Source: Citrifermentans bemidjiense Bem
GTDB lineage: Bacteria; Desulfobacterota; Desulfuromonadia; Geobacterales; Geobacteraceae
DNA length: 64,000 nucleotides
Direction of reading: 5' to 3'
Assembly (NCBI RefSeq): GCF_000020725.1
Contig: NC_011146.1
Span: forward strand, 3,595,501 to 3,659,500
Shown here: positions 4,240-11,225 of the stretch, one piece after another
How the letters are laid out: each line of letters begins with the position of its first letter
Numbering within the stretch: the first letter of the stretch is position 1
Notes under the pieces: generated by a model
What the model was told of the DNA's origin: nothing
Seen by the model: the letters and a program-made list of their open reading frames with translations, nothing else
Databases searched by the model: none
Made by a program: the position numbers and the translations under genes

Positions 4240-4704
4240 ATGAGACTACTTGTTATCTCTGACAGCCACGGCAATTACGCACATGCCTTCAGGGCGCATC
4301 AGATGGCCGGCGATGTCGACGGGATAATCCATTTGGGAGACGGCTCCGAGGATGCACGCATGCTGGAAGAAGTGCTGGGAGTGACGGTACACAAGGTGGC
4401 GGGCAACTGCGACTTCGACCGCGGTCTCCCGGCGGAGCTCACCTTGGAACTGGGCGAGTGCCGCATCCTGGCGACGCACGGCAACAGGGAGCGGGTGAAA
4501 AGCGGGTTGAAGGAGCTGATCGGCAAGGGGATCGAGGCGAAAGCTTCCGTGGTGCTCTACGGCCACACGCACCTACCGGCGGTCGAGGCGGCGCAAGGCA
4601 TGCTGCTCGTCAACCCCGGTCCGTTAAAAGAAGGGTTAGCGGGAAGCTTCGCCATCGTCACCATTCACGGCGCGACGGCGAGCGCGAAGTTGTACCCTAT
4701 CTAG
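4240..4704 (+). CDS. YfcE/MJ0936-type metallophosphoesterase
   Basis: Small (154 aa) calcineurin-like phosphodiesterase. The metal-binding blocks appear in order: SDSHGN, HLGD, GNCD, THGN and GHTH. The start is the ATG at 4240, preceded by GAGGAG at good spacing; 21 further in-frame upstream residues do not look coding. Its 3' end overlaps the convergent gene at 4701 by 4 nt. The substrate cannot be told from sequence; relatives hydrolyse model phosphodiesters or act on nucleotide second messengers. Confidence 0.92.
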   Translation: MRLLVISDSHGNYAHAFRAHQMAGDVDGIIHLGDGSEDARMLEEVLGVTVHKVAGNCDFDRGLPAELTLELGECRILATHGNRERVKSGLKELIGKGIEAKASVVLYGHTHLPAVEAAQGMLLVNPGPLKEGLAGSFAIVTIHGATASAKLYPI

Positions 4705-5090
4705 CAGCCGCAGCCGCAGTTATGGCAGACCTTGCGGTTCTCGCTGTCGGGGGGGACCGTTTCCGGCGCGAACGCAATGCGGTTCACGGCGCGCCTGATG
4801 TCTTCGAGCGGGTCGAGGTGGGGGCTCTGGCCGATGACGTGTCCCACGCAGACGTTGCTTATCCCGTCCGAAGGGGAAGCGATCCTCACCGAATTCAAAA
4901 GGTCGCCGTAGCTCTTCACCTCGATGACCTCGCCGCAGGCGACACCGCGCTCCAGCGTAATGCCGAAGCGCTCCAGCTCCTGCGCCAGTTCCGCGAAAAA
5001 CAGATCGAACGTCACCCCGCCGAGGGGGCTTTCCCACTCCGGCCTGCTTTGCGTCCGCCCGTAGCAGGTGAGCCTCATTTGTTTTGCCAT
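4701..5090 (-). CDS. Conserved hypothetical protein with Cys-rich tail
   Basis: 129-residue soluble protein that I do not recognise. The start is the ATG of MAKQMRLTCYGRTQ. The body is acidic and mixed alpha/beta, with no signal peptide or membrane helix. The last eight residues, CHNCGCGC, contain five cysteines, suggesting metal or cluster binding. Upstream in-frame codons run into a G-rich repeat and were excluded. Confidence 0.7.
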   Translation of the reverse strand: MAKQMRLTCYGRTQSRPEWESPLGGVTFDLFFAELAQELERFGITLERGVACGEVIEVKSYGDLLNSVRIASPSDGISNVCVGHVIGQSPHLDPLEDIRRAVNRIAFAPETVPPDSENRKVCHNCGCGC

Positions 5091-5109
5091 TCTTAAACCT
5101 CGTAAAAAA

Positions 5110-5231
5110 CAGGGACTGGGGGCTAGGGGCTGGGGGCTGGCAAAATCAAAAGCCGACCCATCCCGGAGCACTTCGTCCCTATTATATTAATTACTCGCAA
5201 TTACCAACCAGTCCCTAGTCCCTAGCCCCTG
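5110..5231. repeat. G-rich imperfect inverted repeat, copy 1
   Basis: The left arm (about 5112-5140) is built from GGGGCTRG-like units. The right arm (about 5208-5231) is the inverted counterpart, CCCTAGTCCCTAGCCCCT. About 65 nt of AT-richer sequence lies between. The left arm has four G-runs separated by 2-3 nt, a G-quadruplex pattern. A second copy of the pair lies at 24319-24406. The right arm overlaps the 3' end of the receiver gene. Confidence 0.65.
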
Positions 5232-5604
5232 CCTTTCGATGCATGGAGCTGAAGATCATGTCCAGTACCGCCTTTTGCTTGGCCTCATACTTGTTCAATA
5301 CAGCGAGACAGGTTCCCATCGGGAACTGCTCGTGCAGGTAGTCCGAATCACGCCCCGACAATATCACGATCCTGTTCTTGTCCATTCCTAAAGAGACCGC
5401 GTAGTTGAGAATCTTGGTCCCATCCAGCATCGGCATTTCCAGGTCGACCAGCAGCAGGTCGATATCCTGTTCCTTGAGTGCGGTGAGCGCCTCCAAGGGA
5501 TCGGTACACCCCACCACATCCAGAAGTGGATAGAGAGCCCGTATCTTGTCAGTCAATGCCCCAATGAAAGGTGCATCGTCATCCACAATAAGAATCTTTC
5601 CCAT
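5215..5604 (-). CDS. Single-domain response regulator (receiver only)
   Basis: A 129-residue CheY-like receiver with no output domain. The acidic pair is in ILIVDDD, the phosphoacceptor Asp in LLLVDLEMPMLDG (about residue 53), the switch Ser in VILSGRDS and the Lys in VLNKYEA. It is the last gene of the operon that starts at 10613, 16 nt after the binding-protein gene. The partner kinase is not adjacent. Its C-terminus overlaps the right arm of the G-rich repeat. Confidence 0.9.
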   Translation of the reverse strand: MGKILIVDDDAPFIGALTDKIRALYPLLDVVGCTDPLEALTALKEQDIDLLLVDLEMPMLDGTKILNYAVSLGMDKNRIVILSGRDSDYLHEQFPMGTCLAVLNKYEAKQKAVLDMIFSSMHRKAGARD

Positions 5605-5620
5605 CGATACCTCAACCTAT

Positions 5621-6583
5621 CTATTTAAGAACCCGGGTCGCTGCGGTGAGCACCGGGAAGGGGACGTTCAAGTCCATGGACTTGGCTGCTTTCATGTTGA
5701 CGATCAAGTCAACGCGTTTGGGGGTCACTACCGGGAGCTGCCCGGGCCTCTTTCCCGCCAGTATGCGAGCTACGTACTCGGCGGCCACTTGCCCCTGCTC
5801 GACCGGGTCTGCCTCAAGCGAGATAGTCGCCCCCTTGTGCGCCGCCCCGGGCATCTGCGAGATCACCGGGATTCTCAGGTCGGTGGCGCGGTGCACGATC
5901 TTCTCGAAATTGCGGCTGCCCACGGTGCACTCGGTCACATAGATGCAGTCTACACGGGAAGCGAAAAGCGACGCAAGCGCGGCATCGAACCCCGCCGAGG
6001 AAGCGAGGTTCGCCTCTACCACGACCATTCCTGCTTGCGCGGCTATCCTGCGGGCCTCTTTCAATTGCACCTGCGACCCTTCTTCCCTGCTGGCGCAGAC
6101 AACACCCAGCGACCGGATCGGCTTGAGATCCATGGCGGTCTTGACCAGGGTGACCAGGGGGACCTTGGAACTGACCCCGGCGATGTTGCGCCCGCTCGAT
6201 ACCATGCTCTTCGCCACCCCGGTCTCGACCGGCCCGTAGACGTCGGCATAGACTATCGGGATATCGTGCGACTCGCGCAGCGCGGCCAATGCGGCGGAAG
6301 TCCCGTAAGCGACGATGACGTCGGCGCCGATGGCGTTGAACTTGCGGATGCTGTTGGACCAGGAGATGAGATCGGGGTTGGGGGTCTGGGTGATGACTTC
6401 GACGTTGCTTTGGTCATACCCCTTGAGCACAAGCGCCTTCACGAAGGCCTTGTGGGCATCGCGGTAGCGCGGCAGATCGCAGGTCAGAAGCGCGGCGACC
6501 AGTTTTCCGGCCGCGCGGGAGTCCGACGCCGGGACGAGGGCGCATATCACAATCAGCAGGAGTATGAAGCGGATCGATTTCAG
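5621..6583 (-). CDS. ABC transporter substrate-binding protein (TrpX/COG2984-like)
   Basis: Periplasmic binding protein of the ABC_sub_bind type, often linked to aromatic amino acids or to sensing. The body starts at about residue 30 with AGKLVAALLTCDLPRYRDA. The first GTG (6550) falls inside a hydrophobic run. Reading upstream in frame to a CTG at 6583 gives LKSIRFILLLIVICALVPAS, a good signal peptide, with GAGGAG 8 nt before the CTG. I therefore propose a CTG start and 320 aa. It lies 22 nt after the porin gene, and no permease gene is nearby. Confidence 0.8.
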   Translation of the reverse strand: MKSIRFILLLIVICALVPASDSRAAGKLVAALLTCDLPRYRDAHKAFVKALVLKGYDQSNVEVITQTPNPDLISWSNSIRKFNAIGADVIVAYGTSAALAALRESHDIPIVYADVYGPVETGVAKSMVSSGRNIAGVSSKVPLVTLVKTAMDLKPIRSLGVVCASREEGSQVQLKEARRIAAQAGMVVVEANLASSAGFDAALASLFASRVDCIYVTECTVGSRNFEKIVHRATDLRIPVISQMPGAAHKGATISLEADPVEQGQVAAEYVARILAGKRPGQLPVVTPKRVDLIVNMKAAKSMDLNVPFPVLTAATRVLK

Positions 6584-6605
6584 GGTACCTGCTCCTCGTT
6601 CTTAA

Positions 6606-8762
6606 TCACCACTTGGCCGCGACCACGGCTACTATCGCATGAGCCGAGCCGTTGAAGGCGCTGTTTTCTGCTTTCTTGTCTTCGTAATCCCTGAAGGTGT
6701 ACTCAAGCGAGGTCGACAACACCTGGTTGAAGCGGTACTCCCCCCGCGCCGAAACGGTGCGTTGGACGGCACGCGAGGTGCTCAACTCGCCGATCCCCGC
6801 GGTGCTCCCAGGTATGCCCACTGTGAAGACGGCAGGGTCGGGGCTGAAGATCGAGGTCGACTCGATTTGCTGCAGCAAAAGCGAGAGGTCGAGCTTTTCG
6901 GTCGCAGCATACGCAGCGTTGAGGGAATAGACATGGGCCCGGTTCACGTACTTGGCACCTGACTGGCTAGGGACAAAGACCCCGGTAAAGAACACCGGCT
7001 GATCGATCTTGTTGCGCAGGTAGGAGTAGTTCGCCCCCAAGGTCAGCCTGTGCACCGGAACCACCCATGCCCCTATGTTCGAGTTCTCGCTGCGCTTGTC
7101 TCTGAAGGAGAGGGGAGCGGCGGTGTAGCTGACCGGGTCGGGATTCGCCCGGTTCAACAGCACCAGGTAGTGCGGCACCTCGTCGTTTTTGTCATGCCTG
7201 AAGAGGGCGTGGCCCGTCAATCCCCATACGTTGCTGCGCGTGTAGTTCGCCAGAAGCTTACCCTCGCGCCTTTCCCCAAACGACTCTCCATAGGAAGGAT
7301 TGTCACTCGTGGCGTAGGACAGATGGGCGCTGGTGCGCAGCCCCTTGATCGGGCGGTAGTGGACCGCGAGCGATCCGGTGTTGGTGTTGGTATTCTCCGG
7401 CAGGGCCCAACTGCTCTCGGACGGGAACAGGGAAACGTGCTTTCTCTGCAGGAACTCTCCGCGGTACTCACCCACCAGCGAGAGGTTTAGCCGCGGCTTG
7501 TAGGAGACGGAGGCTATGACGAGATCCTTCACCGTGTCGACGGGAGGGCGCGACAGCGCTGCGGGAAGAAGCAGGTTTGAACTTAGGACCGCGCCGCGGT
7601 TTCCGTGCTCCACCTCCTGGCGCCGGTATCTGATGGAAAAGGTGTACTCGCGGTCGGGCGTATAGACGAAGTCGCCGGCGGCGTTTTGCAGATAGGTCCT
7701 GGCGTGCTGTACCCCGACGGTGTCGGTCAGCTTGGAAAGATTCTCGCGCTGTTCCACCGAGTAGGAGGCGCCGGTTACCAGCCCGCCGGACATGGAGCTG
7801 TGCAGCTTTATCGTGTGCGAGTAAAAACGGCTGTCGGGGTTTTCGTTGTGCTGCTGCGCCCCTGCCAGAGTTAGGGGATTTCCGGCCAGATCGGGACGTG
7901 CCACGTAGTCGGCGACCGGGGTGGAGAGCTTGTCCTCGAAGCTGCGGAATTTGAAATCGTAGATGACGTCCACCAGCCCGAGATGGGCGTCGAAACCCAG
8001 GCGCCCTTCCTGGACCTGCTGATTCACCGGCCTTGCCTGCGCGAAGACCCGGTTCACCGTCCCCTCGAAGGAGGCGTCGGAGAAGATCTGCTGCACGCTC
8101 CCCTCCCTCTGGTAGCGCCAGTAGCCAAGGTTCAGGTGCATTGGAAAGTCGTGCAGACGGTAGCGGAAGTCGGCCCGGTCCTGCACCACGCTGACGCCGT
8201 ACTTGGCGCCGGCGTCGAGCTGTATCGGCTCATAGGTCGCTAAGCCGCCGCTGTTTGACCCTGACTGAAAAGAAGGGGAGAACAGGATTTCGCGGTCCAG
8301 GTTGTGGTAGAGCGACTCGGTCCTCAGATGCAGGCGGTAGTCGCCGCGGTAGTCGAGGATCAGGTCGCCGTGATAGTCGTTTTCGTTGAGGTAGAACCCT
8401 TCCAGCTCGAGGTTGCTGTCCTTTTCCATGTGCCGGTAAAACACGCCGCCACTGCGGCTGGATTCCGAGAAGCCGTACTCAAGGGCTCGCCCGGCGTTTC
8501 GATCCTTGAAAAGCCAGTTGTACCCGAGCGAGCCTCCCTTTTGCTCCAGCACCTCGACCTGCCGGTCGTACTCGGCCGGGAGCGGGTTCAGGTCCACCAG
8601 CAGCTGCGGCTCCGGCTCGGGGGGCGCCTCCAAAAGGTCTGCGTCCGCCACCGGCACCTCGATTATGTCCCCCTCTGCCGCGCAGACGCTGCCGGCTGCC
8701 AGCAGCAGCAAGATAAGAGGCGAGATTACGGCAGATACAAGATCAAGAGGCTTGTTCACCAT
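6606..8762 (-). CDS. MtrB/PioB-like outer-membrane beta-barrel porin
   Basis: 718-residue predicted outer-membrane barrel. The signal peptide (about residues 1-29) ends VCA|AEGD. Many alternating hydrophobic/aromatic strands follow, such as YRLHLRTESLYHNLD and YTFSIRYRRQEVEHG, and the last residue is Trp, a typical BAM signal. Placement directly after a decaheme cytochrome suggests a porin-cytochrome conduit carrying electrons across the outer membrane, as in MtrAB, PioAB or MtoAB. Unlike Shewanella MtrB, no CXXC is seen near the N-terminus. Family assignment is inferred from context and barrel features. Confidence 0.78.
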   Translation of the reverse strand: MVNKPLDLVSAVISPLILLLLAAGSVCAAEGDIIEVPVADADLLEAPPEPEPQLLVDLNPLPAEYDRQVEVLEQKGGSLGYNWLFKDRNAGRALEYGFSESSRSGGVFYRHMEKDSNLELEGFYLNENDYHGDLILDYRGDYRLHLRTESLYHNLDREILFSPSFQSGSNSGGLATYEPIQLDAGAKYGVSVVQDRADFRYRLHDFPMHLNLGYWRYQREGSVQQIFSDASFEGTVNRVFAQARPVNQQVQEGRLGFDAHLGLVDVIYDFKFRSFEDKLSTPVADYVARPDLAGNPLTLAGAQQHNENPDSRFYSHTIKLHSSMSGGLVTGASYSVEQRENLSKLTDTVGVQHARTYLQNAAGDFVYTPDREYTFSIRYRRQEVEHGNRGAVLSSNLLLPAALSRPPVDTVKDLVIASVSYKPRLNLSLVGEYRGEFLQRKHVSLFPSESSWALPENTNTNTGSLAVHYRPIKGLRTSAHLSYATSDNPSYGESFGERREGKLLANYTRSNVWGLTGHALFRHDKNDEVPHYLVLLNRANPDPVSYTAAPLSFRDKRSENSNIGAWVVPVHRLTLGANYSYLRNKIDQPVFFTGVFVPSQSGAKYVNRAHVYSLNAAYAATEKLDLSLLLQQIESTSIFSPDPAVFTVGIPGSTAGIGELSTSRAVQRTVSARGEYRFNQVLSTSLEYTFRDYEDKKAENSAFNGSAHAIVAVVAAKW

Positions 8763-8777
8763 CCGGCTCCTTTGCGT

Positions 8778-9782
8778 TTACTGGCGCAGCGTGCCCCTGC
8801 CAGTCAGCGCCTGGGAGGGGGTATCGGTGCCGTGCACCTGGGAATGACAGTCGGTGCAGCGATTGTTGAAAAGGCTCTTCAACCCGGGCGTCTCCATGGC
8901 CAGGTGCCCGGTATGGCACTGCAGGCAGAGAAACGGCATGCTCGCGTTAAGCAGGTTGTTGTTCACCGATCCGTGGGGAGTGTGGCAATTGGTGCAGTTC
9001 TCGGTGACGTCGCCATGTTCGAAGGCGAACGGCCCCTGCTTCTCCATGTGGCACCTGGTGCAGGTTTCCTTGATGGAGTTTCCCTTGAGCAGGCGCTCCT
9101 GCGTCGAGCCGTGCACCTCGTGGCAATCAACGCAGGACATCTTCTTCTCCCGCAGCGGATGGTGCGAGAAAAGCGAGTTCTCCGCCTGCACCTGCGGATG
9201 GCAGCTAAAGCACATCTCCGACATCTGGTCGCGGCTCACCTTCTGCTGGGGCCCCTGGTGCAGTTTGTGGCAGTCGAAGCAGCTCACGTCGTTCAAGGCG
9301 TGGACGCTGGAGCGCCAGTGGGCGAGGGCCGGGATGGACGCGGCGGAGTGGCATTTCAGGCAGATCAGGGACTGGGCCTGCGGGGGGAGGTTCATGATGT
9401 CCAGGAACTTGGAGGTGTCGCACTTCTTCTTGAGCCGGCTGTTCTCTTCTGTGTCGTCGGAGAGGTGCGCGATGGCGAGGCTGCCGGGGCCGTGGCACGA
9501 CTCGCAGTTGACCAGGGGAAGCCCGGTCTCGGGCTTGATCTGCTCGCCGTGGATGCTGTGGCCGAAGTCGTCGCTGATCTTGTCGTGGGCGTGGCACTTG
9601 GAGACGCAGTTGCTGGTCCCGACGTACTCGGCGTCGAGCCTCCCTACGATCATCTTCTCGTAGTCGCGGGTGGGGAGGAGCGGATGGCTCTGTTTGAGGT
9701 TGGCGCAGGAAACGGAGATGACAGGGACGAGCGCCACGAGGATAAACAACTTGATGCAGCGCAGGGTGCGTGCAGATGCCAT
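8778..9782 (-). CDS. Decaheme c-type cytochrome (MtrA/DmsE-like)
   Basis: 334 residues with nine CXXCH motifs at about 93, 141, 168, 191, 217, 241, 263, 286 and 309. The first site, CVSKCH at 59-64, has three residues between the cysteines. Counting it gives ten hemes, as in MtrA/DmsE. The N-terminus has a hydrophobic export signal and a Cys at 26 (ISVSC) that is only a weak lipobox. Translation begins directly after the ATPase stop (TAGATG), and the porin follows 15 nt downstream. Likely the periplasmic electron carrier plugged into the porin. Confidence 0.9.
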   Translation of the reverse strand: MASARTLRCIKLFILVALVPVISVSCANLKQSHPLLPTRDYEKMIVGRLDAEYVGTSNCVSKCHAHDKISDDFGHSIHGEQIKPETGLPLVNCESCHGPGSLAIAHLSDDTEENSRLKKKCDTSKFLDIMNLPPQAQSLICLKCHSAASIPALAHWRSSVHALNDVSCFDCHKLHQGPQQKVSRDQMSEMCFSCHPQVQAENSLFSHHPLREKKMSCVDCHEVHGSTQERLLKGNSIKETCTRCHMEKQGPFAFEHGDVTENCTNCHTPHGSVNNNLLNASMPFLCLQCHTGHLAMETPGLKSLFNNRCTDCHSQVHGTDTPSQALTGRGTLRQ

Positions 9783-10613
9783 CTATTCCCCCCTTATCCC
9801 CTTTGTAGTGGTGTAGATGAAGCCGCGCACGATGGGGTTCTCGCTCCGTTTGATCTCGCGCGGGGTCCCGACCTCGACGATGGAGCCGCCGTGCATCATG
9901 GCGATGCGGTCGGAGATGTACAGCGCGAAGTTCAGGTCGTGGGTGACGATGACCGTCGTGTTCCGGGTGCTTTCTTTGAGCTTGATGATGGTGTTGGCCA
10001 GCTCGTCCGTGGTCACCGGGTCGAGTTCGGCGGTAGGCTCGTCGTAGAGGATCAGGTCAGGGTTCATCGCCAGCGACCGGGCGATGGCAACGCGTTTTTT
10101 CATCCCGCCGGAGAGCTCGGAGGTGCGGAGTTCTTCCTTGCCGACGAGCCCCACCATCTCCAGCTTCTGCTTGATGATCTCCCGGACCTGCGCTTCCTTG
10201 CAGACCCTCTTCTCCCGAAGCCAAAGGCCTACGTTCTCTCCCACGGTCAGCGAGTTGAAGAGCGCCGAGGACTGGAAAACCATGCTGTAGCGGTAGTCGC
10301 GCGCCACGGCTCCCTGCCCTTGGGCGAAGATGGGCATGTCGTCGATGAAGATCTCGCCGCTATCGGGGGTCTCCAGCTTGACGATGTGTTTCAAGAGGAC
10401 GCTTTTACCGGTACCCGAGGGGCCGATGATGCAGAAGGTCTCGCCGGCGTAGATCTCCAGGTCGATGTCCTTCAGCACGTGGTTCGGCCCGAAGAACTTG
10501 TTCAACTGCTCGACCCTGATGCCGACCCCCCTGGTATCTTCCAGATTTACCGGGCGATGGCTATCCTGATGAAAGAAGGAGGCGGACAGGCCGTGTTTTA
10601 TCTTCTCGAACAT
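9783..10613 (-). CDS. ABC transporter ATP-binding protein, MlaF-like
   Basis: 276-residue ATPase beginning MFEKIKHG, with AAGGAG just upstream. Walker A is GPSGTGKS, the signature is SELSGGMKKR, Walker B is LILYDEPTAELDP and the H-loop is VTHD. The Q-loop stretch FQSSALFNSLTVGENV is characteristic of Mla/Ttg2A lipid-transport ATPases. No MlaE-type permease or MCE protein is in the window. It is the first gene of the cytochrome-porin operon, so the usual lipid-trafficking role is uncertain here. Confidence 0.88.
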   Translation of the reverse strand: MFEKIKHGLSASFFHQDSHRPVNLEDTRGVGIRVEQLNKFFGPNHVLKDIDLEIYAGETFCIIGPSGTGKSVLLKHIVKLETPDSGEIFIDDMPIFAQGQGAVARDYRYSMVFQSSALFNSLTVGENVGLWLREKRVCKEAQVREIIKQKLEMVGLVGKEELRTSELSGGMKKRVAIARSLAMNPDLILYDEPTAELDPVTTDELANTIIKLKESTRNTTVIVTHDLNFALYISDRIAMMHGGSIVEVGTPREIKRSENPIVRGFIYTTTKGIRGE

Positions 10614-10709
10614 CCTTCTCCTTTGAGCGCGCCGCGGGCGGTGCCGGCGGAGGCTTCCCTCACCTTGACAGGAGCAGTGAGCGCCTGACGGCTGGATGAG
10701 ACGCGCCAC

Positions 10710-10739
10710 ATACTAACAGAGATGGACGTTCACTGGCAA
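10710..10739 (-). promoter_or_regulatory. Probable sigma-70 promoter of the cytochrome-porin operon
   Basis: On the minus strand: TTGCCA (10739-10734), an 18-nt spacer, then TAGTAT (10715-10710). Transcription would start near 10703, leaving a leader of about 90 nt before the ATPase gene. Confidence 0.45.
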
Positions 10740-10796
10740 CAGGAATGTTTGTGATAAGTTACGATTAGGTAACGACGAAACGGCACCGGCAGCGGT

Positions 10797-11225
10797 CTAA
10801 AAAAGATAGGGAGATCGGTTGTCGAACTGGCGCCTGATACGGAAAAGGTACAGGTTCAACAGCACGACTATGACAGTGGCGAAAAGGGTATTGAAACGGA
10901 GGTCGTCCTCAGAGACAGCAACGGCCGCAAGTTTCGCGTATTCCTCGATGGGAATGATGGCGAGGTTGATCCAGGCATTGCAGATGTCGAACAGGTTGTA
11001 GGCCATCAGGAGCCAGACGGTCAGCTGCTGCCGTTTCAGCACCCCGATCAGCAGGTAGAGAGAGAGGAGCGAGTCCATGAAGGCGAGGGACTTCGCCGCC
11101 CCCCCCTCGTAGATGACACCCAGGAAGGGGAAGGGGGCGCCGTAGTTGGAAAATGCCATGAGCAGGGAGAAGCCGGCCACCACGGCAAGCGGCAACAGCG
11201 CAAAGGGGGGGCGCTCAGCGGGCAT
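10797..11225 (-). CDS. Hypothetical membrane protein
   Basis: 142 residues with about four hydrophobic helices (near 10-30, 45-62, 68-90 and 112-130). The C-terminus is basic (FRIRRQFDNRSPYLF). I do not recognise the family. It lies 54 nt after the CoA-binding protein gene on the same strand and is probably the last gene of the deacetylase operon. Confidence 0.7.
   Translation of the reverse strand: MPAERPPFALLPLAVVAGFSLLMAFSNYGAPFPFLGVIYEGGAAKSLAFMDSLLSLYLLIGVLKRQQLTVWLLMAYNLFDICNAWINLAIIPIEEYAKLAAVAVSEDDLRFNTLFATVIVVLLNLYLFRIRRQFDNRSPYLF

Follow-up and report, generated by a model that had tools for sequence, protein, structure and literature searches.

MtrAB-type electron conduits, such as the MtrCAB complex of Shewanella (6r2q) and those of Desulfuromonas acetexigens and other Desulfobacterota, combine a decaheme cytochrome with a 26-stranded outer-membrane barrel encoded next to it. 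The Desulfobacterota conduits were described in 2025: mtrAB is clustered, mtrC often lies elsewhere, and the genes are expressed on electrodes (PMC12133095). Conduits consisting of MtrAB only are also known, and a 2014 survey of porin-cytochrome systems listed for Citrifermentans bemidjiense one pcc cluster, of a different family (PMC4245776). A related conduit, OmcK/OmcL, is found in G. sulfurreducens and in syntrophic sulfate reducers (PMC10553843), and omcK is induced on hematite (PMC4070692). Here we analyzed a 64,000-nt stretch of the C. bemidjiense Bem genome (NC_011146.1, positions 3,595,501 to 3,659,500; hereafter the window), in which five genes at 5215-10613 on the minus strand encode an ABC ATPase, a decaheme cytochrome, a barrel, a periplasmic binding protein (SBP) and a receiver-only response regulator. 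We consider it probable that this is a composite operon, in which a variant MtrAB conduit with its own SBP lies beside the ATPase of a separate, split MCE transporter.

The original prediction, made from the window's letters, knew of no described system with this set of genes. MtrAB conduits of Desulfobacterota and OmcKL have in fact been published, and a report linking such a conduit to a lipid transporter, an SBP or signalling genes was not found: the searched text of PMC12133095 mentions neither chemotaxis nor Mla nor a binding protein, and that of the OmcK/OmcL paper (PMC10553843), as searched, mentions neither Mla nor a binding protein. In a literature search thin on subscription papers, three features appear to be undescribed: the link with a split MCE transporter, the constant presence of an SBP and the exchange of the signalling gene.

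The conduit genes

The cytochrome (8778..9782, minus strand, 334 aa) is a probable lipoprotein (Cys26). It scored 271 bits against TIGR03508, the DmsE/MtrA family (cut-off 192), as the only DmsE-family protein of the genome above the cut-off, and it aligned with MtrA in the Mtr structure 6r2q over most of its length (E 2.4e-40). Its ten heme motifs comprise nine CXXCH and one CX3CH, the latter always first, a signature that was invariant in all full-length orthologs examined; most of these also carry a lipobox Cys before the first heme motif. The adjacent barrel (6606..8762, minus strand, 718 aa) had no Pfam match at E<=0.001, a search of the genome with PF11854 (MtrB) returned no match, the barrel included, and its profile gave only chance matches among PDB sequences. 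Its AlphaFold2 model (pLDDT 81) has 26 long strands, and a PDB fold search with this model returned MtrB (6r2q_B) as the best match, with an E value of 2e-20 and a TM score of 0.73, the next best being 2e-8. The barrel is therefore MtrB-like by fold and not by sequence profile. The original assignment of the two genes to an MtrAB-type conduit thus holds, and we make it with high confidence. By homology, the lipid-anchored cytochrome would sit inside the barrel and carry electrons from the periplasm to acceptors outside the cell.

In many Desulfobacterota mtrC is not linked to mtrAB. In the genome of the window, a decaheme cytochrome of the OmcA/MtrC family (TIGR03507; 939-aa frame) is encoded about 267 kb away (G000:C1:3873542-3876007, L225) and is a possible outer partner of the conduit. 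Compared with MtrAB as described, the conduit in the window differs by a CX3CH first heme, a probable lipoprotein as its cytochrome, an SBP as constant third gene, mlaF upstream and a signalling gene downstream; the MtrAB of D. acetexigens (PMC12133095) may or may not fall in the same subfamily. OmcK-OmcL (GSU2203-GSU2204) are a homologous cytochrome and barrel, but the pair in the window scored below the family cut-offs (NF041028, 253.6 of 325 bits; NF041027, 102.8 of 350 bits), and the OmcKL-type loci that we fetched carry ten CXXCH hemes and no SBP.

The ATPase and a probable split lipid transporter

The first gene of the operon (9783..10613, minus strand, 276 aa, PF00005) encodes an ATPase whose profile matched best to the MlaF-type ATPases 7d06 and 6z5u in the PDB, which bears out its original description as Mla-type. 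Nearly all of 130 Desulfuromonadia genomes contain one match to it at E<=1e-85. It is the only MlaF ortholog of its own genome, where the best-scoring other ATPase is 39% identical to it and none exceeds about 42%. Against NF008809, the NCBIfam MlaF equivalog, it reached 162 bits of the 441 needed; this model is probably narrow, and the miss limits the name and not the partnership with MlaE and MlaD.

Partner genes in the genome were located by family searches. The sole mlaE lies 443 kb from the ATPase in the window, between mlaD and the gene of a 490-aa protein (OMP490), and there is no ATPase gene at that locus. The same OMP490-mlaE-mlaD arrangement without mlaF was present in further Geobacterales (L210, L212-L215, L222, L224). 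OMP490 (L149:10287-11759; G000:C1:3162286-3163758) is secreted, contains repeated Trp-Pro motifs and has no match in Pfam; its gene directly precedes mlaE in the loci examined, and it is a candidate Mla partner in the outer membrane or periplasm. In eight families of Desulfuromonadia the order OMP490-mlaE-mlaF-mlaD-cytochrome-barrel-SBP is contiguous, with the whole mla operon directly upstream of the conduit. The expectation that electron conduits rarely travel with ABC proteins consequently fails in this class.

Phylogenetic co-occurrence pointed to the same partners. Family f4 has 59 genomes with a completeness of at least 90%; 11 of them carry both mlaF and mlaE of this type and the other 48 carry neither, so that the two unlinked genes agreed in 59/59 genomes, a level reached by 0/100,000 within-genus shuffles. 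Four f4 genomes without mlaE and mlaF keep the barrel; in the two read in detail (L109, L112) the cytochrome, barrel, SBP and receiver genes are retained and the ATPase gene is missing. In-frame stops in mlaF of G219 and G223, considered as signs of gene decay, were dropped because intact open reading frames (L220, L219) place the stops outside the likely gene.

The ATPase is thus genetically tied to MlaE and MlaD by the contiguity in eight families, by co-occurrence in f4 and by the position of the sole mlaE beside mlaD, and it very probably serves these remote partners. Like the known MlaFED, the system has MlaF, MlaE and MlaD, contiguous in the outgroups; unlike it, the Geobacterales version is divided between two loci and has in first position the 490-aa protein without a Pfam match. 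Most simply, an ancestral contiguous cluster would have been split in Geobacterales. The first gene of the operon would then provide the ATPase of a separate Mla/MCE machine that moves lipids between the inner and outer membranes, the remainder of which (OMP490-MlaE-MlaD) would be encoded 443 kb away; lipid transport is here predicted from the MlaFED homology. The original prediction had noted two ABC-type parts and the absence of any permease, MCE protein or outer multiheme cytochrome. Its suggestion that the ATPase serves lipid asymmetry gains support from the remote partners and their co-loss, and the ATPase and the SBP prove unrelated to each other; the three missing components are indeed absent from the locus, and all are encoded elsewhere in the genome.

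Conservation of the gene order

The five genes are separated by gaps of 0, 15, 22 and 16 nt in the order ATPase, cytochrome, barrel, SBP and receiver, on one strand and at the coordinates first called. A search across Geobacterales, proposed with the original prediction, found this order kept: it recurs in 33/36 Geobacteraceae loci, two of the remaining three being cut by contig ends. The prediction thus withstood its own refuting case, homologous loci in which the genes have come apart. The cytochrome-barrel-SBP trio was found in 75/81 loci from about 15 families. Outside the class, two further genomes of the phylum (L227, L228) have it as well, and there the cytochrome again has the 9+1 heme pattern. 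The gene order is beyond chance.

The trio (5621..9782, minus strand) also disappears as one block. In the dozen Geobacterales genomes without a barrel that were read, mlaF adjoins the receiver gene, which thus remains in place once the conduit genes are gone. In G027 (L196), which is closely related to the window genome, the end of mlaF runs directly into the leader of the receiver gene, leaving a gap of 12 nt; this junction fits a deletion between the AATAGAT repeats that lie at the stop codons of mlaF and of the SBP gene. Since the trio recurs as a unit and is lost as a block, the five genes consist of two layers, mlaF with the receiver gene and a three-gene cassette between them. G041 (L197, L198) carries two copies of the mlaF-receiver pair and no conduit barrel in the genome.

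These data bear on whether the products form one complex, in which the MCE transporter would be physically or functionally coupled to the conduit, for instance by supplying or clearing lipids around the barrel or by serving the lipid-anchored cytochrome, and both would share the SBP as an accessory. The seven-gene contiguity in eight families is consistent with such a complex, as are the fact that Geobacterales, with mlaE and mlaD at another locus, still keep mlaF beside the conduit, and the position of an SBP beside mlaD (L216, L217) or mlaF (L209) where the conduit is absent. However, the conduit occurs without mlaF (L109, L112, and f6 and f13 loci) and mlaF without the conduit (the dozen Geobacterales genomes, and f11); neither therefore needs the other, and we regard a single complex as unlikely.

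We further considered that slowly changing gene order simply holds unrelated genes together in an operon without joint function. The flanking genes are likewise syntenic through Geobacteraceae, and pairwise gene distances correlate as vertical descent predicts; we set these distances aside as evidence, because correlations that reflect common descent do not discriminate between the readings. Against mere neighbourhood, other families and classes have the trio between different flanking genes, and its loss takes all three genes together, which makes this explanation quite improbable.

A single sigma-70-like site upstream of the ATPase gene (10710..10739, minus strand) is a weak candidate for the one promoter placed ahead of the operon by the original prediction; it is the sole such match in 4900-11000, where 1.2 are expected by chance. 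Two neighbouring genes without family matches are also conserved: 10797-11225, encoding a probable membrane protein of 142 aa, is kept upstream of mlaF across much of Geobacterales, and 4701-5102, encoding a small protein with the C-terminus HNCGCGC, is kept after the receiver gene in Geobacteraceae. A 794-aa open frame on the plus strand (8304-10688), antisense to the ATPase, cytochrome and barrel genes, was taken as a by-product of GC-rich coding.

The binding protein and its signalling neighbours

The SBP gene (5621..6583, minus strand) encodes 320 aa with a signal peptide when read from a CTG start at 6583, which is preceded by GAGGAG; the 22-nt gap from the barrel gene depends on this start. 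The first ATG, GTG or TTG start, a GTG at 6550, would truncate the signal peptide, and no ATG start that retains it was found. The protein belongs to PF04392 (E 9e-44), and its model (pLDDT 92.7) superimposes at a TM of about 0.85 on the aromatic amino acid binders 3lkv, 3lft and 6hni. It therefore shares the fold of TrpX, CD0873 and VC_1101, as the original label TrpX-like implied, yet it scored 126.7 bits against NF041285 (TrpX; cut-off 390), and its selectivity residues differ. Two side-chain positions that govern selectivity are A/A/E and Y/Q/Y in three known binders (PMC6816091); in this SBP the alignment places Met244 and Pro260 there, and the ligand is therefore probably a different one. 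Unlike those binders, it is encoded with neither a dedicated permease nor a dedicated ATPase in the locus, and it accompanies conduits and signalling proteins.

The receiver gene (5215..5604, minus strand, 129 aa, PF00072) encodes the predicted receiver-only regulator: among 18 orthologs D8, D10, D54, S83 and K105 are invariant and D9 is nearly so, preserving the acidic pair, the phospho-acceptor Asp, the Ser/Thr and the Lys. The gene that follows the trio varies between lineages. It is the receiver gene in Geobacterales, a HAMP chemoreceptor gene in f6, f13 and f25, and in L227 the genes of a HAMP histidine kinase and a second binding protein. The HAMP-MCP chemoreceptor genes lie directly after the conduit genes in these three families (L115:11511-13865, L126:11801-14176, L128:5280-7643), and in some f6 loci the chemoreceptor follows the barrel, with the SBP absent.

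The SBP is likely a functional part of the conduit module. Because signalling genes have repeatedly been exchanged after the trio, the orphan SBP would more likely be a sensor than part of an importer, and we treat a sensing role, suggested by gene context, as a real possibility while leaning slightly away from it. In the mechanism that we propose, the SBP, as the third constant gene of the cassette, would most likely bind a small ligand and pass information to the neighbouring signalling protein, an output that would vary from the receiver here to a chemoreceptor or histidine kinase in other lineages. Ligand sensing that controls the conduit had been offered originally as an alternative to an ATPase serving lipids; comparison supports it through the receiver, chemoreceptor or kinase adjoining the SBP, and the two proposals are not exclusive. 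A nutrient importer, in which an unlinked permease would receive an aromatic amino acid, or a ligand like it, from the SBP and would use the ATPase in the window, agrees with the fold of TrpX and CD0873 but is very improbable given the MlaF type of the ATPase, its co-occurrence with MlaE, the residues Met244 and Pro260 and the score of 126.7 against the TrpX cut-off of 390. We also reject the reading that the SBP and this ATPase together form a single ABC importer, as the ATPase tracks MlaE.

Several observations weigh against the composite operon as set out above. In Geobacteraceae synteny extends to the flanking genes (tpr, up_10797, dn_4701, metallophosphoesterase, sppA), so that order within the family alone is weak evidence. 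An MtrC-family protein is present in 16/36 Geobacteraceae genomes that carry the barrel, and many conduit genomes are without one. With more than half of the barrel-carrying genomes lacking it, the phylogenetic profile speaks against MtrC as an obligate partner, and the conduit therefore probably works without it in many species. Several incomplete genomes (52-88%) have mlaF without type-A mlaE, and missing sequence may account for all of these cases or only for some. In the f4 loci read, mlaD does not adjoin mlaE. A few f6 loci lack the SBP. In G063, G183 and G254 an SBP adjoins mla genes where the conduit is absent. Likewise without conduit genes, L216 and L217 have a second SBP beside mlaD, and L209 has one beside mlaF, which also counts against sensing; the SBP might thus serve the lipid transporter. 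No expression, interaction or mutant work on the locus was found in the literature, searches with the likely Gbem locus tags included, and the function of every part is read here from homology and gene context.

Within the composite operon, physical or regulatory coupling of conduit, lipid transporter and sensing is conceivable. In its fullest form, the SBP would have been recruited into an MtrAB conduit as its stable third component and would report the state of a ligand or acceptor to signalling proteins supplied by each lineage, and the ancestrally clustered MCE transporter would maintain the surrounding membrane. We offer this extension tentatively and consider it on balance doubtful.

These results indicate that co-occurrence and co-loss across genomes can assign unlinked partners to an 'orphan' ATPase that seems to lack a permease, and that an SBP gene together with a CX3CH first heme defines a recognisable conduit subfamily. 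They suggest that Geobacter-like bacteria link their current output to membrane upkeep and to sensing. In this group, which is used for bioremediation and current production, they provide genetic links of electron export with outer-membrane lipid upkeep and with ligand sensing that can be tested.

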